Assembly: GCF_000218895.1 (NCBI RefSeq)
Contig: NC_015703.1
Span: 3,919,001-3,983,000 of the forward strand
DNA length: 64,000 nt
Reading direction: 5' to 3'
Source: Runella slithyformis DSM 19594
GTDB taxonomy: Bacteria > Bacteroidota > Bacteroidia > Cytophagales > Spirosomataceae
The position numbers were made by a program, and so were the translations under genes. This document shows, piece after piece, positions 35,362-47,504 of this stretch. Under the pieces are notes generated by a model. The model had not been told where the DNA came from. It ran no database searches and saw only the letters and a program-made list of their open reading frames with translations. Numbering within the stretch: the first letter of the stretch is position 1; each line of letters starts with the position of its first letter.

Positions 35362-35433
35362 CTGCTATTTATCAATGTCTCAATGTTAAACACCGGTTTA
35401 GTCATGACGATAATGACTAACACTGTCTCTATT

Positions 35434-38400
35434 ATGAAACTCTCTATCTCTACATGGCTGCTGATTGGGTCAGGGGTCACCATTCTGTTAGGGGCGTTTT
35501 TGGGCGTGTCGTTTTCGAATACCATTCAACGTCAGTTAGACGAGGCGCATTGGGTAAAAGGAAAACATGAAACGGCTGCCCAACTTCTTACGCTTGAAAA
35601 ATTGTTGGTCGATATGGAAACGGGGCAACGTGCTTTCCGGAGTACAAATGAAAAAAGATTTCTCGAACCCTACAGCCGAGCCCGGGCCACCATTGGGCAC
35701 GTGGAAGATAGGCTCAATCAACTTCTGCAAAGCAGTCCTTCAAGATTGGCTACTTTAGAGCAAGTTCAACAGTCGATGCAGGGTTTGCTTCAATTATGGA
35801 GTGCTTCTATTGAGAAGACTGATAAATTGAGCCGCGGCGAAGTGATTGATCTTACGGATCAGGAACGAAATGAAATGGAAAAAGTAAGGGCTTTGGTAAA
35901 AAAAATATACACTGCCGAACAGTACGAGCTGACTCAGCGGGAGCTTGCCATCAAAACGGAAATTGAGAAAGTAACTCATCAGACAGTTTGGGGTACAGCG
36001 CTGCTTTTCTTTGTGGCTGCGGTTCTTACTTACTTCTATTTTCTGGAATTTAGAAGTCGTCGTAAAATTGAGAACCGGCTCAATAAAAATGTCACTGAAC
36101 TGGAAAGGCTTAATCAATCCGTTAACGAGCGAAATTGGTACCTGGCCGGATTGACCCTCATCAATGACTCACTTCAAAACACCACGGGATTGGAAGGAAT
36201 GGGCCAATCGGGCCTGAAAGCCATCACCGATTACCTGGAGCTTCCCGCCGGAGCATTATACACTTTTGATAATGATGACCGAAATCTGGCACTGATTGCC
36301 TCGGTGGCACTGCCTTCTCAGGTCTCTCAATCGTATGGATTAGGCGAGGGATTGGTGGGGCAGGCAGCAATGGATCGTCAAATACGCATCACAAGAGCAA
36401 TTCCTCCCGATTACTGGACAATCCAATCAGGCAGCGGAGGTGCTGCTGCGGGTCAAATCGCCTGTATTCCACTTTGGTACGGAAATGAACTGAAAGGGGT
36501 GATTGAATTGGCCTCCTTCACTTTTTTTACTGATTTACAAAAGGAGTTTTTGCGAAGAGTGTCCAATGATATTGCGGTATCAATCAATGATATACAGTCA
36601 AGAATAAAAATTGATCGCCTGTTGGAAAAATTAAAAGAACAAACTTTAATTTTGGAAAATCAGCAGCACGAGCTGCGTCAAACCAACGAAGAACTGTCGC
36701 GGCAGGCAGAAAGTTTATTGGCCTCAGAAGAAGAGTTGCGGGTACAGGAAGAAGAGTTGAGATACATTAACTCAGAGTTGGAAGAGAAAAATGAAGCGGT
36801 AGAAGTGGCAAGGGAGGCACTTTCACAAAAAGCAAAAGAGCTGGAAATAACAAGCGCGTATAAATCTGAGTTTTTAGCCAATATGTCGCACGAATTGCGT
36901 ACACCGCTGAACAGTGTGTTGATCTTAGCTAATATGTTGTCAGAGAATGCCTCCAATAATCTGACAGCCAAGCAGGTAGAGTACGCCAATGTGATTCGTA
37001 AGTCAGGCACAGACCTGTTAAAATTGATCAATGATATTTTGGACTTATCAAAAATTGAGGCCGGTAAAATTGATTTTCTGTTTGAAAGCACCCCCGTTAA
37101 TACTGTCGTAAATGATATTTCTCAATTGTTTGGTATTGTAGCCGAAGAAAAGGGAATAAATTTCCGGACACAGGTAGACCCGTCTGTTCCGGCGACACTC
37201 TACATTGACAAACAGCGTTTGGAACAGATTATTCAAAATCTATTGTCGAATGCCTTTAAGTTTACCCCCCAAAACGGAAATGTAACGCTTTCCTTTGCAG
37301 TGCTGGAACCACAGCAGAATTTTGCCAGTCAGGCCTTGAGACAAGCGGAACAGATACTGTTTATCGGAGTAGCGGATACAGGAGTAGGCATCCCGCCCGA
37401 AAAGCAGCAGTTGATCTTTGAGGCGTTTCAACAGGCAGACGGCTCTACAAGCCGCCGATACGGTGGAACCGGCTTGGGACTGTCGATCATCAAAGAATTG
37501 ATAAAACGAATGGAAGGCGAAATTCGGCTGCTGAGTGATGTCGGCAAAGGAAGTACTTTTCTGGTGTTTATTCCTCTCAAAACAAAAACTGTTGAAGCTT
37601 CGGAGAGGCAGGCTGAGCCGCAGATTTTAATGGAAAATCGTGCCTTGGTGCTAAACGCATTTCATAATGAGTTGGCCACTCCGGTCAGTATTGAAGATGA
37701 TCGGGAGGTTATTGAAAACAATGATTTTGTTATGCTGATCATTGAAGATGATCCACTGTTTGCCGGAATTGTAAGAGATCTGGCCCGCGAGAAAAATTAC
37801 AAAACAATTGTGGCAATGAAAGGCGATGAAGGAATGTTGTTTGCCCAAAAATACAAACCGTCGGCCATTATTCTGGATGTACAGCTGCCTGTCGTTGATG
37901 GCCGAAGTATACTTTCCTGGATAAAAAATGACGAACGGTTAAAGCATATCCCTGTGCATGTTATTTCAGGCTCTGATGCCTCCCAACTCTCGTTGGAAGG
38001 AGCACATGCATTTCTCCAAAAACCCGTCAAAACGCAGGATTTGGAGAAAGTATTTGGTCTGCTGGAAGCACAGTTGAACGTTAAGATTAAAAAAATATTG
38101 ATATTAGTCGGAGAATTTATCCAACGAAACTCGATCGGACAGGTGCTCGGAAATCGGTATCCGGACTTGGAATGGGAAGTGTTGACATCAGAAGAAGAAG
38201 CCGCTGACAGGGTTTCGTACGCAAGCTATGACTGCCTGATCGTAGACATGCGCAGGAATTTAACGCAGGGTATGGAAAAATTGGTGCGTATCAAAGAACT
38301 TTATGAGGCAAAAACCCTTCCCGTTATAGTCTACATTGATGAAGACCTCAATCAGACAGATGAGCGCCGGCTGAAAAAAATGTCCAGTGTCATCATCCGG

Positions 38401-38889
38401 GAATCTACGCAGTCAATGGAACGACTGATGGATGAACTCGAATTGTTTCTCTTTAAAGTGCATGAGGCAGAAACCAAAAAGCTGCCTCAACCCTCCGCAG
38501 CATTCAATAACCGAGGGTTGGAAGGAAAAAAGGTATTACTTGTAGACGACGACATGCGGAACGTTTTTGCGCTGAGTACTTTACTGGAGGAGCAGCAGAT
38601 GAACGTTATTACGGCCGATAACGGCAAAGAAGCCCTGGAGTTGTTGCGCCGGCATCCCGATACCTCCATAGTACTGATGGATATCATGATGCCGGAAATG
38701 GATGGCTATGAAGCAACTGCCCGGATACGCAGCGAATTGCGTCTGCCCAAATTGCCCATCATTGCCCTGACGGCCAAAGCTATGCCCGAAGACCGTGAGA
38801 AAGTGATGGCGGCCGGTGCATCTGACTATATTACTAAACCCGTAGATACAGGACAGCTCTTCTCGCTGATGCGGGTGTGGTTGTCATAA
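35434..38889 (+). CDS. CHASE3-GAF hybrid sensor kinase with three receiver-like domains
   Basis: 1,151 residues from the ATG at 35434 (MKLSISTWLL), which leads straight into the first membrane helix. Order: TM1; CHASE3 (LVDMETGQRAFRSTNEKRFL); TM2; GAF-type domain (about 250-390); coiled coil (about 400-470); HisKA with H486 (MSHELRTPLNS); HATPase_c; REC1 with D815 (ILDVQLPVVDG); a middle receiver-like domain (about 888-1010) with CLIVDMRRN; and C-terminal REC3 with D1083 (LMDIMMPEMDGYE). It overlaps nothing but sits 5 bases before cheR. Likely senses an envelope or intracellular cue and phosphorelays to the receivers and downstream genes. Confidence 0.93.
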   Translation: MKLSISTWLLIGSGVTILLGAFLGVSFSNTIQRQLDEAHWVKGKHETAAQLLTLEKLLVDMETGQRAFRSTNEKRFLEPYSRARATIGHVEDRLNQLLQSSPSRLATLEQVQQSMQGLLQLWSASIEKTDKLSRGEVIDLTDQERNEMEKVRALVKKIYTAEQYELTQRELAIKTEIEKVTHQTVWGTALLFFVAAVLTYFYFLEFRSRRKIENRLNKNVTELERLNQSVNERNWYLAGLTLINDSLQNTTGLEGMGQSGLKAITDYLELPAGALYTFDNDDRNLALIASVALPSQVSQSYGLGEGLVGQAAMDRQIRITRAIPPDYWTIQSGSGGAAAGQIACIPLWYGNELKGVIELASFTFFTDLQKEFLRRVSNDIAVSINDIQSRIKIDRLLEKLKEQTLILENQQHELRQTNEELSRQAESLLASEEELRVQEEELRYINSELEEKNEAVEVAREALSQKAKELEITSAYKSEFLANMSHELRTPLNSVLILANMLSENASNNLTAKQVEYANVIRKSGTDLLKLINDILDLSKIEAGKIDFLFESTPVNTVVNDISQLFGIVAEEKGINFRTQVDPSVPATLYIDKQRLEQIIQNLLSNAFKFTPQNGNVTLSFAVLEPQQNFASQALRQAEQILFIGVADTGVGIPPEKQQLIFEAFQQADGSTSRRYGGTGLGLSIIKELIKRMEGEIRLLSDVGKGSTFLVFIPLKTKTVEASERQAEPQILMENRALVLNAFHNELATPVSIEDDREVIENNDFVMLIIEDDPLFAGIVRDLAREKNYKTIVAMKGDEGMLFAQKYKPSAIILDVQLPVVDGRSILSWIKNDERLKHIPVHVISGSDASQLSLEGAHAFLQKPVKTQDLEKVFGLLEAQLNVKIKKILILVGEFIQRNSIGQVLGNRYPDLEWEVLTSEEEAADRVSYASYDCLIVDMRRNLTQGMEKLVRIKELYEAKTLPVIVYIDEDLNQTDERRLKKMSSVIIRESTQSMERLMDELELFLFKVHEAETKKLPQPSAAFNNRGLEGKKVLLVDDDMRNVFALSTLLEEQQMNVITADNGKEALELLRRHPDTSIVLMDIMMPEMDGYEATARIRSELRLPKLPIIALTAKAMPEDREKVMAAGASDYITKPVDTGQLFSLMRVWLS

Positions 38890-38894
38890 CAAAA

Positions 38895-39731
38895 ATGAAC
38901 CCACCGATACAACTCACCAACGAAGAATTGGGGGAGGTAATTCACCTCATACGTACTCAATACGGGTACGACTTCAGTGATTATGCTCGTGCATCGCTCC
39001 TTAGAAGAGTCAACCGGTGTATGAGTATTGCCGGGTTAAAAGCCGGTTATGAACTGAAATATCATTTAATCAACGACAAATCTTTTTTTGCATGGTTTTT
39101 AGAAACCCTGACGGTTAATGTCACGGAGATGTTCAGAGATCCGTCTTTTTACAAAGAACTCCGTGAAAAAGTGCTTCCTGCGCTTGCTTCGTATCCCATT
39201 ATCAAAATCTGGCATGCCGGGTGTGCTACCGGTGAAGAAGTATACTCAATGGCTATTCTATTGCAGGAGGCCGGCTTACTTAACCGGGCCAGGATTTATG
39301 CTACTGACCTAAATCCTGTCAATTTGGAAAGAGCAAGGCAGGGAATTATCCCTTTGAAACTGATCAAAGAATATACTGCAAATTATATACAATCAGGAGG
39401 GCAAAATGATTTTTCGTCGTATTATACCGCGCAATATGACAATGCCATTATTCACAAGGAGTACCGGGACTGTGTGTTGTTTGCACAACATAATTTGGTA
39501 GCTGACCACGTATTCAACGAATTTCAATTGATATGCTGCCGTAATGTAATGATTTATTTCAATCAGGAATTACAGAATAGAACCATTCATTTATTTCATG
39601 AAAGTTTATCTTTTTTGGGATATTTGGCGCTGGGCATTAAGGAGTCGTTGCTCTTTACGGATATAAAAGAACAGTTTGAAACAGTGAGTTTGGCAGCCCG
39701 GATTTACCGGCGGAAAAGTAAGATAAGATGA
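38895..39731 (+). CDS. cheR: CheR-type methyltransferase
   Basis: 278 residues from the ATG at 38895, 5 bases after the hybrid kinase stop. SAM-binding motif IWHAGCATGEEVYSMAIL, acidic ATDLNP and the CheR motif LICCRNVMIYFN are intact; an N-terminal CheR-N helical domain precedes. Methylates glutamates of chemoreceptors in classical systems, but no MCP, CheA or CheW gene is visible in the window. It overlaps cheB by 4 bases. Confidence 0.9.
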   Translation: MNPPIQLTNEELGEVIHLIRTQYGYDFSDYARASLLRRVNRCMSIAGLKAGYELKYHLINDKSFFAWFLETLTVNVTEMFRDPSFYKELREKVLPALASYPIIKIWHAGCATGEEVYSMAILLQEAGLLNRARIYATDLNPVNLERARQGIIPLKLIKEYTANYIQSGGQNDFSSYYTAQYDNAIIHKEYRDCVLFAQHNLVADHVFNEFQLICCRNVMIYFNQELQNRTIHLFHESLSFLGYLALGIKESLLFTDIKEQFETVSLAARIYRRKSKIR

Positions 39732-40303
39732 TCGAAAAAGGCGTTGATATTGTTGTCGTTGGCGGCTCAGCCGGATGCATTCCCGTAATTAGTGAGCTGA
39801 TAGAAGCACTTCCATACCCGTTTAATTTTAGAGTTGTTGTCGTAGTTCACCGTTCCAAAAATGTAATCAGTGAGTTGGAACAGATTCTTGCCCTAAAACG
39901 AAAAGAAATTATCATTAAAGAACCTGATGATAAAGAACCTATCCAAAAAAATTGTGTTTATTTGGCTCCTCAAAACTATCATTTGTTGATTGAAGCGACT
40001 CATGCGTTCTGCCTGGATTATTCAGAGCCGGTGTTCTACAGCCGTCCTTCAATAGATGTTACATTTGAAAGCATTGCAGAGGTATATACCGAAAAGACTG
40101 TGGCTATTTTATTGAGCGGCGCAAACGGTGACGGGGCCAAAGGCATGGCTGCGATTATTGCAAAAGGGGGGACCGGCATTGTGCAGGATCCTTCAACCGC
40201 CGAATACCCCGCTATGCCTCAGCTCGCCCTTGAGTATAATCCCGAAGCTGAGGCGTTGCCGCCTTCCCGAATCGTGACTTTCATGCAGACATTGAATTTA
40301 TAA
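39728..40303 (+). CDS. cheB: CheB-type methylesterase, catalytic domain only
   Basis: 191 residues. The catalytic triad is seen: S14 in GGSAG, H41 in VVHRS, D135 in GANGDGAKGM. The N-terminal receiver of classical CheB is absent, so this is a constitutive or partner-controlled esterase/deamidase. The 4-base ATGA overlap with cheR indicates coupling. Confidence 0.9.
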   Translation: MIEKGVDIVVVGGSAGCIPVISELIEALPYPFNFRVVVVVHRSKNVISELEQILALKRKEIIIKEPDDKEPIQKNCVYLAPQNYHLLIEATHAFCLDYSEPVFYSRPSIDVTFESIAEVYTEKTVAILLSGANGDGAKGMAAIIAKGGTGIVQDPSTAEYPAMPQLALEYNPEAEALPPSRIVTFMQTLNL

Positions 40304-40318
40304 ATCAATCAGTAAATA

Positions 40319-41422
40319 ATGCTAAACCCTAATCGAGACTTTACAATTCTTTTGGTTGACGACCGAGAAGAAAACTTATTGGCCCTGGAGGAAATGCTGG
40401 CCGGTGAGAACAGGGTTTTTATCAAAGCTGCTTCCGGCAATCAGGCCCTGCGCTATGCGCTCAAAAACGATAATATCGGCCTTATCATGCTGGATGTTCA
40501 GATGCCCGAAATGGACGGCTTTGAAGTGGCAAGACTCCTGAAAACAAACCAAAAGACAAAACATATCTCCATAATTTTTGTGACAGCCATCAATAAAGAA
40601 GAGCACCATATGCTGAAAGGATTTGATGAGGGAGCAGTGGATTATCTTCAAAAACCGCTGGATATCAATGTCACCAAAGCGAAAGTAAGGGTTTTTCAAC
40701 ATTTGTATCAATACCAACAGGAGCTGAAATATACCGCTATAGAACTCCAGCGGATAAACAGGCAGTTAGAAAAGTTTGCCTTTATCATTGCCCACGATAT
40801 GAAGTCACCGCTGACGGGGCTCATCGGTGCGCTGTCTTTATTGGAAATGAATGACGATGGAGACCTTTCAGGGGAGGAGTGCAAAGAATATATCTCTCAT
40901 TCCAAAGAGGCAGCCCTCTATTTGTCAAATATGATCAATGCACTGCTGGATTACTCCCGCAAAAGCCTGACCGAACAAACTGTCGAAGAAGTCAATGTGC
41001 AGGAAATGGTGGAGCAGGTAGTTCACCATTTGTTTTTACCTCCTCAAATTACTTTTCGATGCTTAACCCCTTTGCCAATCTTATGGACCAAAAAGTTAAA
41101 ACTTCAGCAAGTATTTCAAAACCTAATAAGCAACGCATTTAAGTACAATAATAAACCTGATGCTTTCATTGAGCTGGGATGTACGGAAAAGAGCGATCTG
41201 TTTGAGTTTTATGTACGCGATAATGGTCCCGGAATCCCGTTTCAGGACCATGAAAATATTTTTAAATTTTTCAGGACCTCCATTAATTTGGCTACTACAG
41301 AAAGCAGCACAGGTGTGGGGCTTTCCATTTTAAAATTATTGGTGGAAGAGCAGGGGGGTAAAATTTGGGTAGATTCTGACCCTGCGTCCGGCAGTACTTT
41401 TTATTTTGAATGGAAAAAATAG
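40319..41422 (+). CDS. Receiver-HisKA-HATPase kinase
   Basis: 367 residues: N-terminal receiver with D59 (MLDVQMPEMDG) and FVTA...QKPL motifs, a short coiled coil, HisKA with H159 (IIAHDMKSPLTG), and HATPase_c (LISNAFKYN, DNGPGIP, GVGLSIL). No membrane segment, so a cytosolic kinase likely controlled through its receiver, perhaps by the hybrid kinase upstream. Starts 15 bases after cheB. Confidence 0.92.
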   Translation: MLNPNRDFTILLVDDREENLLALEEMLAGENRVFIKAASGNQALRYALKNDNIGLIMLDVQMPEMDGFEVARLLKTNQKTKHISIIFVTAINKEEHHMLKGFDEGAVDYLQKPLDINVTKAKVRVFQHLYQYQQELKYTAIELQRINRQLEKFAFIIAHDMKSPLTGLIGALSLLEMNDDGDLSGEECKEYISHSKEAALYLSNMINALLDYSRKSLTEQTVEEVNVQEMVEQVVHHLFLPPQITFRCLTPLPILWTKKLKLQQVFQNLISNAFKYNNKPDAFIELGCTEKSDLFEFYVRDNGPGIPFQDHENIFKFFRTSINLATTESSTGVGLSILKLLVEEQGGKIWVDSDPASGSTFYFEWKK

Positions 41423-42236
41423 AGCACTCAGCCGAAAATCAAGCAGCGGACGTTTTACAGATGCCGTGAAAATATACCGGTAGTTTAAAATTGATTTTTT
41501 TTTGATTGGTAATTTATGCCGGGAAAAGAATAAAGACCATATATACATAATTAATTTTGGTTGGGCAAAAAGAATTATTAGGTGAGAAACCAAATGATTT
41601 CAATCAAAAAGGGTATATTTGTTGTACTTATATGGCTATAAATATTTTGCCGGTCACTCATACTGTTTCGGTTCGGATTCTCTTAATTATAACGGGCATA
41701 TTAAGTGATCTCAAAATGGTAGGCATATTTATTAAAATGTACTGTTTTCCACCGAACCGGGTCTTTTTTTTCAACGTTAGGCCTGTAAAAATTAATCTGT
41801 ATACGCTCCCTATACTCCATATATCGCTTACGATTGCTCGTTATTTGAGATGACACGCGTTATGAATTTTTCGTAAACGAAACTAAGCATACATCATTTT
41901 ATGAAGTAAAGGAAACGACTTTTTTTAACGAGAATGCCCTAAAAATCATATTGATTGACACAGAGGATCAGACGAGTGTGCCGGGTAAAGTGAAAAGAGA
42001 GTAACTAATCAGTATAAATTTAGCCGGTTTCGGTGATGTCAATCCACTGCAATCGCTGATTATTATACACATCACACAAATACGGAGTGTTGAAGGGTAA
42101 ATTCAATTATTATGTCGGGTAGCTTGTGTGATAAGAAGACCGTTTGAAAATTATTACAGCGTAAATGCAAATTCCCAAATTATTGACAACCACATCCAAC
42201 GTTTAATGAAGTAAATACCAAAAAAATTCAGTACTT
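41423..42236. other. 814-base gap, no gene supported
   Basis: A/T-rich spacer. The only open frames lack coding character; one stretch (41849-42004) has no stop for 51 codons (translating to NETKHTSFYEVKETTF...), but no start codon, and could be a degraded domain. The stand-alone receiver gene presumably has its promoter here. Confidence 0.5.
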
Positions 42237-42617
42237 ATGACTAACCGTTACAATGTTCTAATTGTTGAAGATGATGCGTTCATTCGTAAAGTTCTTCGTC
42301 AATCCCTAAAAAACGACTTTGAAGTAACTACCCACATCAATGGAATTGAAGCCATGAGCTGGCTTGAGCAGGGAAACCCTGTCGATGTGGTACTTACCGA
42401 TTTGCAAATGCCCTATTTAAACGGTCAGGATTTGATTCGAACCATACGTGCGAGTCCTATGTTCAAAAATCTGCCAATCATTATTTTATCCACTTTCGAC
42501 GATAGCAATACGCGTATAGCCTGTTTGGAACTGGGGGCTGATGATTTTATGACTAAACCCTTTAACCCCTTGGAAGTCAAGGCGAAAGTGTTGGCCGTCA
42601 TGCGGCGAACGAAGTAA
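42237..42617 (+). CDS. Stand-alone receiver protein
   Basis: 126 residues, a lone response-regulator receiver with acidic residues E11/D12/D13, phospho-acceptor D55 (VVLTDLQMP), S85/T86 and lysine K107 (TKPF). Contains the segment WLEQGNPVDVV, which is nearly repeated in the N-terminus of the next gene. It lies 70 bases before the phosphoglycosyl transferase and could be its partner. Confidence 0.92.
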   Translation: MTNRYNVLIVEDDAFIRKVLRQSLKNDFEVTTHINGIEAMSWLEQGNPVDVVLTDLQMPYLNGQDLIRTIRASPMFKNLPIIILSTFDDSNTRIACLELGADDFMTKPFNPLEVKAKVLAVMRRTK

Positions 42618-42687
42618 TCCGTAATACCTGTTCGGTTGTTACTAAAATACCTTTTTTTCAGCAATCCTATACCTTGAGAAAAGTCAA

Positions 42688-43848
42688 ATGGAGTCAGAAC
42701 CGGGAAAAAAAGGGTCGTTTCGAGTTGTGTTAATTGAAAACGATCCCGAGCGCATATCGTTGTTGAACAATGATTTTGGTGCACTTGTTGATATAATTAC
42801 AGAACCTGAATATACGCAGGCGCTTGATTATTTAGAAATGGGTAATCCCGTTGATTTAATCATCTGCAAAGACTCGGCGGGTTACAGTGATTTTTTGAAA
42901 TCGTTGCGGAAGAAAGTATACTTTCATTCCATACCGGTCATTCTGTTTAAGGAGCATGAAGAGACAGACCCCAAAGCCGTGCAAGGTCAGGTCATAGATG
43001 TGTTTTCGCTTCCGTATCCACTTGAAGCGCTTCAGATCAGGCTGAACTACCTCATTCAAAAAAAACAATACTCCGAAGCTGCCCGAACGCCTTACAAACC
43101 GACGCGTATCAGAAGTCCTTTTGGAAAAAGGGCATTTGATATAGTCGTTTCGGCAACAGCCCTTTTGATGCTGTCGCCTATTTTGGCAGTGGTGGCTGTT
43201 TTGGTAAAACTGGATTCAAAAGGACCTGTTTTTTATCGTTCAAAAAGAGTGGGAATGGGATATCGGATTTTTGATATGTATAAATTTCGAACCATGCGAA
43301 CCGATGCCGACAAAATGCTGGCGAACATGGCTTCCCTGAATATGTATAACGTGGCTCCTTCGGTACCTGTCAGTGATCTGTGCGAAGAGTGTCAACTGGC
43401 AGGTACGGAATGCCGGCAGGTACTGTTTCTTGATAATGAAAAGATTTGCGAGAAACTTTACCACCAAAAACAAAAGGCAAAAGCGACGTTCTCCAAATTT
43501 AAAGAAGATCCCAGGGTGACTAAATTGGGTAAATTTCTGCGCAACTCAAGTATCGATGAGCTGCCGCAGCTATTCAATATCCTTTTGGGAGATATGTCGT
43601 TTGTCGGTAATCGCCCCTTACCGCCGTATGAAGCTGAAAAACTTACTTCTACGGGCTATGCCCGTCGGTTTGCGGCTCCTGCCGGGCTCACAGGGCTCTG
43701 GCAAGTGACAAAACGCGGAAAATCAAAAGTGTCGGATCTGGAACGTATCCAATTGGATGTGCTGTACGCAAAAAAATACTCGTTCAAGACAGACTTGATC
43801 ATTATGATAAAAACGGTAAAGGCTGTTTTTCAAAAGGAGAACGTATGA
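42688..43848 (+). CDS. Initiating phosphoglycosyl transferase fused to a pseudo-receiver
   Basis: 386 residues. Residues 1-128 resemble a receiver: FRVVLIENDP (strand 1), YLEMGNPVDLIICKDS, VILFKEHE, FSLPYPLE; the phospho-acceptor Asp is replaced by K61, the switch Thr by Lys and the conserved Lys by Leu. The rest is a WcaJ/EpsL-type bacterial sugar transferase with the membrane re-entrant helix (about 148-175), FRTMRTDAD, catalytic D290-E291 (SSIDELPQLFN), GDMSFVGNRPLP and GLTGLWQV. A 40-residue insertion with C232, C235, C242 and C254 lies between FRTM and DPRVT. It would load the first sugar phosphate onto undecaprenyl phosphate. Confidence 0.92.
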   Translation: MESEPGKKGSFRVVLIENDPERISLLNNDFGALVDIITEPEYTQALDYLEMGNPVDLIICKDSAGYSDFLKSLRKKVYFHSIPVILFKEHEETDPKAVQGQVIDVFSLPYPLEALQIRLNYLIQKKQYSEAARTPYKPTRIRSPFGKRAFDIVVSATALLMLSPILAVVAVLVKLDSKGPVFYRSKRVGMGYRIFDMYKFRTMRTDADKMLANMASLNMYNVAPSVPVSDLCEECQLAGTECRQVLFLDNEKICEKLYHQKQKAKATFSKFKEDPRVTKLGKFLRNSSIDELPQLFNILLGDMSFVGNRPLPPYEAEKLTSTGYARRFAAPAGLTGLWQVTKRGKSKVSDLERIQLDVLYAKKYSFKTDLIIMIKTVKAVFQKENV

Positions 43849-44789
43849 GCGCGGTACCACTTGTCTCGTTTATCACCATCAATTATAATCAGGCTCAGGT
43901 AACGTGCGATATGCTCGAATCGACGCGCTTACTGACGTATCCAAACATTGAGATAATTGTGGTGGATAATGGCTCAGTGGAAGATCCAACGCCACTGATC
44001 CAAAAAGGTAACTATCCCAACGTTAAAGTCATTTTGACCAACGCTAATCTGGGTTTTTCAGGAGGCAACAATGCAGGCATCAAACAGGCAAAAGGAGATT
44101 ACTTTTTCCTGCTCAACAATGATACCATCGTTACGCCTACGCTGGTAGAAGACCTGCTCGCTCCGTTTGCGGCTGATTCATCGATTGGTATGACTTGCCC
44201 TAAAATTCGGTATCACGACCATCCTACAATTCTGCAATATGCCGGCTACCGACCCCTGGACCGACTCACCGGACGGACGTGGGCTATTGGTTTGCAGGAA
44301 GAAGATAAGGGCCAACACGATGTTTCCGGACCAACGTATTTTGCCCATGGAGCCGCTATGATGGTAAAACGGGAAGTTATTGAAAGGGCCGGCTCACTGG
44401 AAGACAGTTATTTTTTGTATTATGAAGAACTTGATTGGTCAGCCAGAATACGACGGGCAGGATTCAAGATATACTATGAGGCTAAAGCGTTGATCTATCA
44501 TCGTGAATCCATGAGTGTAGGCAAGGCCAACCCATTAAAAGTCTACTACCATACCCGCAATCGACTGCTTTTTATGCGGAGAAATGTGGCCGGAATGACG
44601 TTGATTGCTTTTTGTCTGTATTACTTTCTGCTGGCTTTGCCCAAAGCGGCCTTGGTGCATTTAGTGCGCGGGCAAACCAACTACCTGAAAGCCATCAAAG
44701 ATGCCGTAACCTGGAATCTGACCCACAAGGTAACCCAAAACGGAGAAATCATTCCGTCGGTATTGTTGGATAAGCCTTACAAAATATAA
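43845..44789 (+). CDS. Glycosyltransferase family 2, rhamnosyltransferase-like
   Basis: 314 residues, GT-A fold: SFITINYNQAQVTCDMLEST, VVDNGSVEDPTPL, FLLNNDTIVTP (DXD-like) and YEELDWSARIRRAGF. A C-terminal hydrophobic stretch (LIAFCLYYFLLALPKAALV) suggests membrane contact. Overlaps the phosphoglycosyl transferase gene by 4 bases (ATGA), so it probably adds the second sugar. The sugar is not determinable. Confidence 0.88.
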   Translation: MSAVPLVSFITINYNQAQVTCDMLESTRLLTYPNIEIIVVDNGSVEDPTPLIQKGNYPNVKVILTNANLGFSGGNNAGIKQAKGDYFFLLNNDTIVTPTLVEDLLAPFAADSSIGMTCPKIRYHDHPTILQYAGYRPLDRLTGRTWAIGLQEEDKGQHDVSGPTYFAHGAAMMVKREVIERAGSLEDSYFLYYEELDWSARIRRAGFKIYYEAKALIYHRESMSVGKANPLKVYYHTRNRLLFMRRNVAGMTLIAFCLYYFLLALPKAALVHLVRGQTNYLKAIKDAVTWNLTHKVTQNGEIIPSVLLDKPYKI

Positions 44790-44801: not shown

Positions 44802-46007
44802 ATGATTGAAATTTTACTTCTCGTTTGTATCGGCCTGGTAGTGTATACGTATCTCGGATATGGATTGGTGGTATGGTTGCTGATTCGCCTTCGCGGAAAG
44901 CGCTCTTCGTTCAAACCGGACGGCTTTTATGTACCCGACGTAACCCTGGTCGTACCGGCCTACAACGAACTTTCCTGCTTGCCGGCAAAAATCGCCAATT
45001 CATTGGAACAGAACTATCCTAAAATTCGATTTTTGTTTGTGACCGAAGGTTCGGATGACGGGTCAACGGAGTGGATCAAAATGCACTATGGCAGCAAAGT
45101 GGATGTGCTGGGAGGGACCGAAAGACGGGGCAAAGTGGCCGCCATGAATGAGGCCCTGAAGTACGTAAAAACACCCATTGTCATTTTTACCGATGCCAAT
45201 ACACACCTCAATAAGGACGCGGTGACGAATATCGTACGCAATTTTCAGGACCCGATCGTGGGAGCGGTCGCCGGAGAAAAACGCATTCTGACAAGCGAGG
45301 ATGAATCGGCCGCAGGGTCGGGAGAGGGCCTCTATTGGAAGTATGAATCGCAGTTGAAACGCTGGGATTCGGAATTGCACACCATTGTGGGGGCTGCGGG
45401 AGAACTGTTTGCAGTGCGTACTGAGCTGTACGAACATGTGGAGCCGGATACGATCCTGGATGACTTTATCATTTCGCTCCGCATTGCGGGCAAAGGCTAT
45501 AAGGTGGCTTATGAACCCGACGCCTATGCGCTGGAACATCCTTCGTTTTCGATATTGGATGAGCAAAAAAGAAAGATACGCATTGCGGCGGGCGGTTTCC
45601 AATCCATTGTTCGATTGAGTTATCTACTGAATCCTTTCAAATACGGCATTTTGTGCTTTGAATACGTATCACACCGGGTATTTCGGTGGGCGGTTGCTCC
45701 GATCTGTTTGCCGCTTATCTTTCTCCTCAATGGGTGGTTGGCCTACGTTGCCGTGCAAAAACCTTCTCCGGCCGGCAATGCCTGGGTCGTGCTGTTTGTG
45801 CTGCAATGTCTTTTCTACGGAGCGGCTTGGGTTGGCTATCAATTGGAACAGCGCCGGTTACGGTGGAAATTGCTTTTTGTTCCTTTCTACTTCACGTTTA
45901 TGAACGTGTGCGCATTGGCAGGATTGGTACGATACTTGCGCGGAAAACAATCAGGTACGTGGGAAAAAGTCCGGCGTGCCGATGATGCAGTGCTGAAAGC
46001 GCAATAG
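44802..46007 (+). CDS. Membrane glycosyltransferase family 2
   Basis: 401 residues with an N-terminal membrane segment (ILLLVCIGLVVYTYLGYGLV), a GT-A domain (VVPAYNELSCLPAKI, TEGSDDGSTEWI, IFTDANTHLNKDAV, ILDDFIISLRI) and three or four C-terminal membrane segments. This is the layout of processive-like or polyprenyl-linked inner-membrane GTs. It starts 12 bases after the previous stop in the same operon. Confidence 0.88.
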   Translation: MIEILLLVCIGLVVYTYLGYGLVVWLLIRLRGKRSSFKPDGFYVPDVTLVVPAYNELSCLPAKIANSLEQNYPKIRFLFVTEGSDDGSTEWIKMHYGSKVDVLGGTERRGKVAAMNEALKYVKTPIVIFTDANTHLNKDAVTNIVRNFQDPIVGAVAGEKRILTSEDESAAGSGEGLYWKYESQLKRWDSELHTIVGAAGELFAVRTELYEHVEPDTILDDFIISLRIAGKGYKVAYEPDAYALEHPSFSILDEQKRKIRIAAGGFQSIVRLSYLLNPFKYGILCFEYVSHRVFRWAVAPICLPLIFLLNGWLAYVAVQKPSPAGNAWVVLFVLQCLFYGAAWVGYQLEQRRLRWKLLFVPFYFTFMNVCALAGLVRYLRGKQSGTWEKVRRADDAVLKAQ

Positions 46008-46037: not shown

Positions 46038-47504
46038 ATGCTAACTTTACTCAACAACGAACGATCAAGGTTTTGGCTTTACGGGCTTGCGGGCTTAGCG
46101 GGCGCGTCTATATGCGGTTATTTGATTGCTAAGCTGGGTATTGCAGGGGCAGGAGTTTCGGTGGTCATGCCAATCGCTTTTTTAATTTTGGTCAGCGTTT
46201 TTGTCGAGCCGCGCATAGGCCTGTTGTTATACCTTCAGCTCAATTTTCTGATCGGTGTTGTGGCCCGTTTTCTGACGATAGACGTACCGTTTGGAACCTT
46301 TATTGATGCTTCACTAATTCTTACCATGCTCAGTCTGATGGTCAATGCCAAGCGGTATGACTGGGGACGGCTGCACAATCCCGTTTTTTACCTGGTCGGG
46401 CTGTGGGTTTTTTTTACCATCCTTGAATTTTTTAATCCGGAAGCTCCCTATAAGCCGGCTTGGCTCTACAACTTTCGTAAATTTTCTCTCTATTGGATTT
46501 TAGCCACCTGTATCGTGTTGGTGGTCCCGTTCAGGAAATCCGACATTAAAATCCTGATTCGTACGTGGCTGTTTTGGTCCTTTTTAGGCGCCCTTTGGGG
46601 GTTTAAGCAACAGTACATCGGATTGACGGCCGGCGAGCAAAATTGGCTCAACATGGGGGCTGCCAAAACGCATGTGCTGTTTGGCGTTTTACGTATTTTT
46701 TCATTTTATACAGACGCTTCCCAATTCGGAGCCGAAATGGCCGCTACCACGTTGGTCTGCGTGATCTGGTTTTTTGAGGAAAAAAAGTGGACGTATAAGC
46801 TTGGATACCTTTTTTTAGCGTTGGTTTATTTTTGGGGATATGCACTATCCGGTACGCGCAGTGCATTGTTTGTACTGCTTGGAGGCTATGCATTCTATCT
46901 GCTTTTACGAAAAGATATTAAGAAGATGCTCATCGGGGGAGCCGTGGCGTTGCCGGTCTTTATCATTCTGATGTATACCAACATCGGTAGCGGTAACTAT
47001 CAGGTACAGCGGATGCGTACAGCTTTGCGACCCATGGAGGACCCTTCTTTCCTGTTACGACTTCAAAACAAACAAAAATTGGCTCTTCTAATGGAAAGCT
47101 TCCCCTTTGGGGCCGGGTTGGGCACTTCCGAAGCAGTAGGTCAGCGTTTTTCACCCAATCACTGGGCCTCTCAGATTGCACCCGATAGCTGGTATGTGAT
47201 TCTTTGGATAGAGACGGGCAAGGTTGGAATGACCCTTTATGTGATTATTTTGGTAAGCATCATTGCGTTTGGAATGTGGAAAGTCTGGCAAATAAAAGAT
47301 CCGTGGCTCTTCAAGATCATGGTTACCATGCTGGCGGAGTTGGGCGGAATCGCGGTAATGGCTTACTCAAACCCCGTTATGGGTCAGTTTCCTACGAGCG
47401 GAGTTATTTTTATCTCTATGGCAATGCTGTCCATCTGTACTCAGTGGGATACGGATACATCCATCGAAAGGCCCTTGCCCAAATCAGCGTTCATAAAAGT
47501 TTAA
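46038..47504 (+). CDS. O-antigen ligase/polymerase (Wzy-like)
   Basis: 488 residues with about 11-12 membrane segments and a periplasmic loop containing PFGAGLGTSEAVGQ followed by DSWYVILWIETGKVGM, the pattern of the Wzy_C/O-antigen ligase domain. In a locus with Wzx and Wzc-like genes it is probably the repeat-unit polymerase. Confidence 0.85.
   Translation: MLTLLNNERSRFWLYGLAGLAGASICGYLIAKLGIAGAGVSVVMPIAFLILVSVFVEPRIGLLLYLQLNFLIGVVARFLTIDVPFGTFIDASLILTMLSLMVNAKRYDWGRLHNPVFYLVGLWVFFTILEFFNPEAPYKPAWLYNFRKFSLYWILATCIVLVVPFRKSDIKILIRTWLFWSFLGALWGFKQQYIGLTAGEQNWLNMGAAKTHVLFGVLRIFSFYTDASQFGAEMAATTLVCVIWFFEEKKWTYKLGYLFLALVYFWGYALSGTRSALFVLLGGYAFYLLLRKDIKKMLIGGAVALPVFIILMYTNIGSGNYQVQRMRTALRPMEDPSFLLRLQNKQKLALLMESFPFGAGLGTSEAVGQRFSPNHWASQIAPDSWYVILWIETGKVGMTLYVIILVSIIAFGMWKVWQIKDPWLFKIMVTMLAELGGIAVMAYSNPVMGQFPTSGVIFISMAMLSICTQWDTDTSIERPLPKSAFIKV

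Follow-up and report, generated by a model that had tools for sequence, protein, structure and literature searches.

PleD of Caulobacter combines two receivers with a GGDEF domain. For receivers of the OmpR/PhoB class, phosphorylation-driven dimerization through the α4-β5-α5 face is established. Fusions of receivers to small monotopic phosphoglycosyl transferases (monoPGTs) were reportedly seen in an earlier sequence survey by O'Toole et al. from 2021. Control of a phosphoglycosyl transferase (PGT) by a stand-alone receiver is already published: in Myxococcus xanthus, the phosphorylated single-domain receiver EpsW stimulates EpsZ, an exopolysaccharide-initiating PGT (PMC12802240). Passages of the same paper propose that EpsW acts directly on the catalytic domain or the membrane helix of EpsZ, mention in the discussion an earlier sequence survey of receiver domains fused to small monoPGTs, and name the sharing of limited undecaprenyl phosphate among glycan pathways as an open question (PMC12802240). 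Part of PMC10942596 describes large monoPGTs of the WbaP/EpsZ type as carrying a four-helix bundle and a PF13727 domain ahead of the catalytic domain.

The locus described here resembles EpsW/EpsZ in that a single-domain receiver is encoded beside, and would control, a PGT predicted to initiate exopolysaccharide synthesis. EpsZ, according to passages of PMC12802240, is a large monoPGT that has a bundle of transmembrane helices and an additional domain in the cytoplasm; the PGT described here, by contrast, is small and carries what is predicted to be a dead receiver. The surveyed fusions of receivers and small monoPGTs belong to the same fusion type, as far as the sentence citing them tells. 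The element that may be new is the combination of a live neighbouring receiver with a dead fused one; among the papers listed by a literature search, with most subscription papers outside its reach, none gave an account of this combination in Bacteroidota. The arrangement suggests that, in bacteria with such PGTs, a phosphate signal may switch polymer synthesis through the pairing of a live and a dead receiver.

The window, i.e., the whole 64,000-nucleotide stretch that was analysed, comes from the 6.9 Mb genome of Runella slithyformis DSM 19594; the nearest named relative of its PGT is found in Runella aurantiaca (87% identity over the best segment). Rfam models at gathering thresholds gave 0 matches in the window. 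The relevant features are as follows.

35383..41422, forward strand: candidate signalling cluster of a CHASE3-GAF hybrid histidine kinase, CheR, a stand-alone CheB and a REC-histidine kinase (domain scan)
42237..42617, forward strand: live receiver, a single-domain response regulator of 126 aa (Pfam Response_reg, E 6.6e-27; residues by alignment)
42399..42401, forward strand: codon of D55, the predicted phosphoacceptor of the receiver; Asp in 91/92 other receivers of the genome
42543..42545, forward strand: codon of receiver D103, the OmpR/PhoB interface Asp, 4 residues before the conserved Lys (alignment)
42585..42587, forward strand: codon of receiver K117, the OmpR/PhoB interface Arg/Lys, 10 residues after the conserved Lys (alignment)
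42688..43848, forward strand: small monotopic PGT of 386 aa with a predicted N-terminal pseudo-receiver (Pfam Bac_transf, E 2.2e-60)
42688..43083, forward strand: predicted pseudo-receiver domain, PGT residues 1-132 (hhalign, AlphaFold2, Foldseek)
42868..42870, forward strand: K61, in the place of the lost phosphoacceptor Asp (alignment)
42997..42999, forward strand: D104, equivalent to receiver D103; least variable column of the N-domain (Asp in 46/49)
43039..43041, forward strand: R118, equivalent to receiver K117; second least variable column of the N-domain (Arg in 41/49, Lys in 4)
43126..43833, forward strand: PGT catalytic domain, residues 147-382 (Pfam Bac_transf, motif alignment)
43845..44789, forward strand: glycosyltransferase of family 2, with a start that overlaps the PGT stop
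44802..46007, forward strand: second glycosyltransferase of family 2 (ORF list and domain scan)
46038..47504, forward strand: Wzy_C (O-antigen ligase family) protein, a candidate polymerase (Pfam, E 2e-8)

The receiver and PGT open reading frames, both on the forward strand, are 70 bp apart; the first-pass annotation had their outer limits and this spacing right, and the two similar strings that it had singled out, WLEQGNPVDVV and YLEMGNPVDLI, are both present. Because its start overlaps the PGT stop, the first glycosyltransferase probably belongs to the same operon as the PGT. The PGT is followed by two family 2 glycosyltransferases, the Wzy_C protein and a Branch-type enzyme, so that the receiver/PGT pair heads a polysaccharide cluster.

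The live receiver scores 94.3 bits against Response_reg (PF00072), above the Pfam cut-off of 30.2, and its alignment displays a complete phosphorylation set (the acidic pair E11/D12, D55, S85, and K107) together with the charged interface set of OmpR/PhoB receivers (R93, D102, D103, E113, K117, and R124). Its best matching stretch in the PDB is the first receiver of PleD (E about 1e-23 for the whole chain). In the PGT, Bac_transf (PF02397) covers residues 147-382. D151 and P164 of the DX12P motif and the D290/E291 dyad are invariant in 23/23 aligned sequences; the meaning of these motifs is taken from passages of PMC12802240. Domain, DX12P motif and DE dyad together place the enzyme among the small monotopic PGTs. 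The parts typical of large monoPGTs are absent, Bac_transf being the sole Pfam match in the protein at E <= 10, and an identification of the N-domain with the PF13727 domain of large PGTs is likewise ruled out by the lack of a Pfam match. A full-length AlphaFold2 model contains the receiver fold and one long helix (residues 145-176), with an uncertain domain arrangement (pTM 0.47).

The first-pass annotation had read the PGT N-terminus as a receiver that has lost its phosphorylation residues, and several comparisons agree with it. As a single sequence, the N-domain of the window has no match to Response_reg in Pfam and only weak matches elsewhere (the PleD model of NCBIfam, E 2.5e-4; PleD in the PDB, E 0.0066); the domain search that had been suggested for it gives nothing for the window sequence and a match at E <= 0.01 for 14/32 N-domains of relatives. 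A profile of these 32 relatives detects PleD at E 1e-20 (whole chain, with the second receiver as the best stretch) along with 233 further PDB entries at E <= 0.01; among the 60 listed, most are named response regulators. The N-domain family aligns with the family of neighbouring receivers over 132 columns at 99.7% in hhalign. AlphaFold2 predicts the order β1-α1-...-β5-α5 with a short α4 (pLDDT 82, pTM 0.76), and a Foldseek search with this model, a structural comparison of the kind that had been suggested, has receiver structures among the 50 matches listed. An N-terminus without similarity to receivers is ruled out by the profile search against the PDB, the predicted topology, and Foldseek.

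In the alignment with the live receiver, D55 corresponds to K61 of the PGT, S85 to K88, and P108 to P109, so that L108 occupies the place of K107. The first ~132 residues of the PGT are thus, according to the structural model and the alignment, a receiver fold devoid of the phosphoacceptor, the switch Ser/Thr, and the conserved Lys. The loss extends to the whole family: none of the 62 non-redundant N-domains keeps the full Asp/Ser-Thr/Lys set, whereas 59/67 non-redundant neighbouring receivers retain theirs. The decay is graded, since Asp still stands at the acceptor position in 14/62 N-domains. For instance, the N-domain of L215 retains Ser and Lys with Glu replacing Asp, and those of L220 and L221 possess the Asp.

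The pair is widespread in Bacteroidota. A scan of genome contigs for the PGT left 80 loci, and in the best 28 of them (L031-L058) a receiver lies upstream in every case; the taxa are Runella, Arsenicibacter, Larkinella, Spirosoma, Fibrisoma, Mucilaginibacter, and bins assigned to Bacteroidetes or Bacteroidales. The PGT profile matches 32/296 genomes of the phylum at E <= 1e-60 and 50/146 genomes of the order at E <= 1e-80, with the N-domain present in a part of them. Among 92 distinct Bacteroidota loci (reduced from 110 by requiring distinct last 150 residues, so that close relatives still contribute to the counts), a receiver gene on the same strand, upstream and within 400 bp, accompanies 71/71 PGTs with an N-domain, an adjacency that distinguishes them from EpsW/EpsZ, and 13/21 bare PGTs. 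Six loci had entered the set through a receiver match (L013, L014, L018, L019, L022, and L024); without them the counts are 66/66 and 12/20. A PGT was called bare when fewer than 95 residues precede the catalytic domain, a cut-off that leaves 5/21 members with 44-63 residues in that stretch; L060 is a fragment. As a receiver also adjoins most bare enzymes, the N-domain would not be the receiver's only route to the PGT.

The N-domain and the neighbouring receiver appear to share a common origin to the exclusion of the other receivers of the genome. An N-domain profile ranks the neighbour first among the 93 receivers of the genome and continues to do so after removal of three Runella-group rows (65.6 bits vs 58.6 for the next, L119). 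In a tree with 34 of the genome's own receivers (hand-chosen rows: 19/49 N-domains, 26/53 neighbouring receivers, and 34/92 own receivers), the N-domains form one clade joined to the neighbouring receivers with support of 99/98. The same topology is obtained with 86 own receivers (34/49, 47/53, and 86/92 rows, respectively, near-copies and long branches removed), at an SH-aLRT of 99.7. An unpruned tree of 183 rows with the long branches kept (44/49, 47/53, and 92/92) gives neither a single N-domain clade nor, for most N-domains, a junction with the neighbouring receivers; even there, the N-domains of L215 and L216, which show the least decay, fall inside the neighbouring-receiver clade with support of 99. 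The outside receivers in all three trees come from the single genome of Runella. The phylogeny that had been suggested for both receivers agrees with their relationship in its two pruned versions and not in the unpruned one.

The N-domain might alternatively descend from another, unrelated receiver, its likeness to the neighbour reflecting a general OmpR-like resemblance. The unresolved unpruned tree would fit this explanation, as would the closeness of the runner-up L119 and the single-sequence rankings, in which the cognate receiver comes first for only 9/32 N-domains and within the top five for 17/32 (against a background of 92 Runella receivers). The high support in both pruned trees and the position of L215 and L216 make such a descent very unlikely.

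Ancient duplication followed by fusion is the likely origin of the N-domain, rather than a recent local event. The first-pass annotation had proposed a local duplication with subsequent fusion; the shared origin stands, but the duplication was neither recent nor confined to this genome, as the pair is common to many Bacteroidota. A recent duplication within this genome is ruled out by the presence of the pair in many families. The string on which that proposal was founded, in the form GN..D, occurs in 33/53 neighbouring receivers, 8/49 N-domains, and 1/93 receivers of the genome (the neighbour itself), a distribution that makes it a family signature; GNPVD is kept in 5/49 N-domains (Runella, Arsenicibacter, and Fibrisoma). 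The duplicated neighbouring receiver would have been fused to a small PGT with a receiver gene already beside it, and N-domains would later have been lost in some lineages. The trees give no order for these events, nor does the catalytic-domain tree, in which the N-domain-bearing L040 is labelled bare, give one for bare and fused PGTs.

The decay of the N-domain is selective, as judged from the aligned sequences: the phosphorylation residues are lost, and a pair of dimer-interface residues is kept. In receiver numbering, Asp103 together with Arg/Lys117 is found in 54/62 N-domains and 54/67 neighbouring receivers, as opposed to 18/92 other receivers of the genome. According to passages of PMC4117788, PMC4773095, and PMC8329863, the equivalent Asp97 and Arg111 of RstA lie 4 residues before and 10 residues after Lys101, the same spacing as here. 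These sources also describe the Asp-Arg pair as the conserved salt bridge between monomers that is central to OmpR/PhoB dimers, formed in the α4-β5-α5 dimers of RstA, KdpE, and VanR, and report that PhoB and PhoP turn monomeric upon mutation of the corresponding interface residues (PMC4117788, PMC4773095, PMC8329863). The locus is comparable to OmpR/PhoB in that the live receiver possesses the charged interface set and the dead one the central pair; it differs in the lack of a DNA-binding domain and in the missing phosphorylation residues of the dead receiver. The conserved interface residues fit a heterodimer of the live and the dead receiver, a reading made from sequence conservation.

The remaining interface positions are distributed unequally between the partners. 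Other charged and hydrophobic OmpR/PhoB interface residues are present in the live receiver and mostly lost in the N-domains. With near-copies included, the Ile/Leu patch of α4 is kept in the receivers and not in the N-domains, and an aromatic residue in α5 occurs in 64/73 N-domains vs none among the 85 receivers listed of 86. Distances among the N-domains correlate with those among the receivers beyond what the catalytic domain explains (partial r 0.40, 56 pairs, 0/2000 permutations as high), in a test run without a second linked gene as control. Strict covariation is absent: 9/49 receivers lack D103, and their N-domain partners keep Arg or Lys in 8 cases. Among the 53 neighbouring receivers, those of L009, L049, L052, and L055 have Glu at the acceptor position and also lack D103; three of the N-domains in these loci carry Asp at the acceptor position. 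Glu stands at the acceptor in 7/67 neighbouring receivers of the larger set.

Since the Asp-Arg pair is symmetric, N:N homodimers would fit it equally well, and the main rival explanation regards the N-domain as a phosphorylation-independent module for homodimerization of the PGT through its own α4-β5-α5 face, with the receiver acting elsewhere (e.g., on the catalytic domain or another exopolysaccharide protein). The reciprocal pair would also close such a dimer, large monoPGTs are dimers (according to part of PMC12802240), and the receivers beside bare PGTs suggest that the N-domain is perhaps dispensable to the receiver. A hetero-pair is better suited to N-domains that lost the α4 patch and gained the α5 aromatic while the receivers kept the patch, and not one of the 71 N-domain PGTs is without a receiver neighbour; the homodimer is thus considered somewhat unlikely.

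Another possibility is that the receiver makes direct contact with the catalytic domain or the membrane helix, the mode of action proposed for EpsW, with the N-domain being a relic or scaffold and the Asp-Arg pair an internal contact. In the NsrR model, the equivalent pair makes an intramolecular contact (part of PMC4773095), so the conservation of the pair may be structural. The bare PGTs with an adjacent receiver point in the same direction, since the target of the receiver may there be the catalytic domain, and so do the N-terminal parts that are short or highly degenerate in L257, L262, and L019. The selective conservation of the pair across the N-domains is unlike that of a relic, and direct binding as the sole mode of action appears unlikely.

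On balance, the probable reading is a two-gene switch in which the phosphorylated receiver would dock on the dead receiver of the PGT and thereby control the initiation of exopolysaccharide synthesis. A histidine kinase would phosphorylate the stand-alone receiver at D55, and phosphorylation, by extension from the OmpR/PhoB class, would render its α4-β5-α5 face competent for dimerization. Instead of or besides pairing with itself, the live receiver would then pair through this face with the dead receiver of the PGT. The conservation pattern suggests reciprocal salt bridges of live D103 and K117 with dead R118 and D104, respectively, as well as packing of the dead α5 tyrosine (Y121) against small α5 and hydrophobic α4 residues of the live partner. 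Docking might be relayed through the long α5, which runs toward the re-entrant membrane helix, and could alter the activity or the oligomeric state of the PGT; activation is the most likely outcome, a guess by analogy with EpsW/EpsZ.

Overall, the order of parts would be that of PleD (live receiver, dead receiver, enzyme), except that the live receiver has a gene of its own. PleD likewise combines a live receiver and an enzyme with a second receiver, in which Asn aligns with the acceptor position; it differs in the kind of enzyme and in that the live receiver of the locus is a separate protein. The extension to a class of switches throughout Bacteroidota, in which a phosphorylated receiver would obligately heterodimerize with the dead receiver of an initiating PGT, is more tentative and falls somewhat short of probable. 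Heterodimerization of receivers is rarely reported for transcription regulators, as stated in part of PMC2586830. If the proposal is true, a membrane enzyme of glycan synthesis would be gated directly by receiver heterodimerization, in what amounts to a PleD divided into two proteins. The idea would be the same as in the PGT control of Myxococcus, in a distant phylum and with a built-in candidate docking domain. This candidate domain, the unbroken pairing in all 71 N-domain cases and the named residues make the mechanism directly testable.

The cluster at 35383..41422 is a candidate for the input to the receiver, a link that is positional only; the ~800 bp between it and the receiver (41423-42236) contain short ORFs only. 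Gene sizes and order upstream of the pair are similar in L031 and L034 (with a domain scan of the first protein for L034). The ORF that precedes the receiver gene in L226-L228 and L213 encodes receiver and HPt domains; in L226-L228 it additionally codes for a kinase ATPase domain. These ORFs could constitute ready parts of a phosphorelay. In L226-L228, the kinase ATPase-REC-HPt protein, the single receiver, and a bare PGT are consecutive. A receiver-bearing ORF of at least 180 aa within 1.2 kb upstream was found in 7/77 loci whose flank measured 450 bp or more; most flanks were ~1 kb, plain kinases would be missed by the search, and the Runella REC-kinase (~815 bp upstream) lay beyond the Runella flanks used. 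Given this low number and the short flanks, the kinase gene in many loci either lies elsewhere or escaped the search.

Two further observations concern the PGTs. In L093 (5332-6681), from a Chloroflexi bin, a receiver bearing a hydrophobic segment at its C-terminus (by eye) lies directly 5' of a bare PGT, which is followed by a Wzz-like gene (by eye); the pair may be a separate instance of the same receiver-PGT logic. The catalytic domain in the window contains an insertion with four cysteines, CxxC-x6-C-x11-C (43381-43449, PGT residues 232-254). It might be a metal site, and the pattern is present in 54/73 family members vs 0/12 outgroup PGTs.
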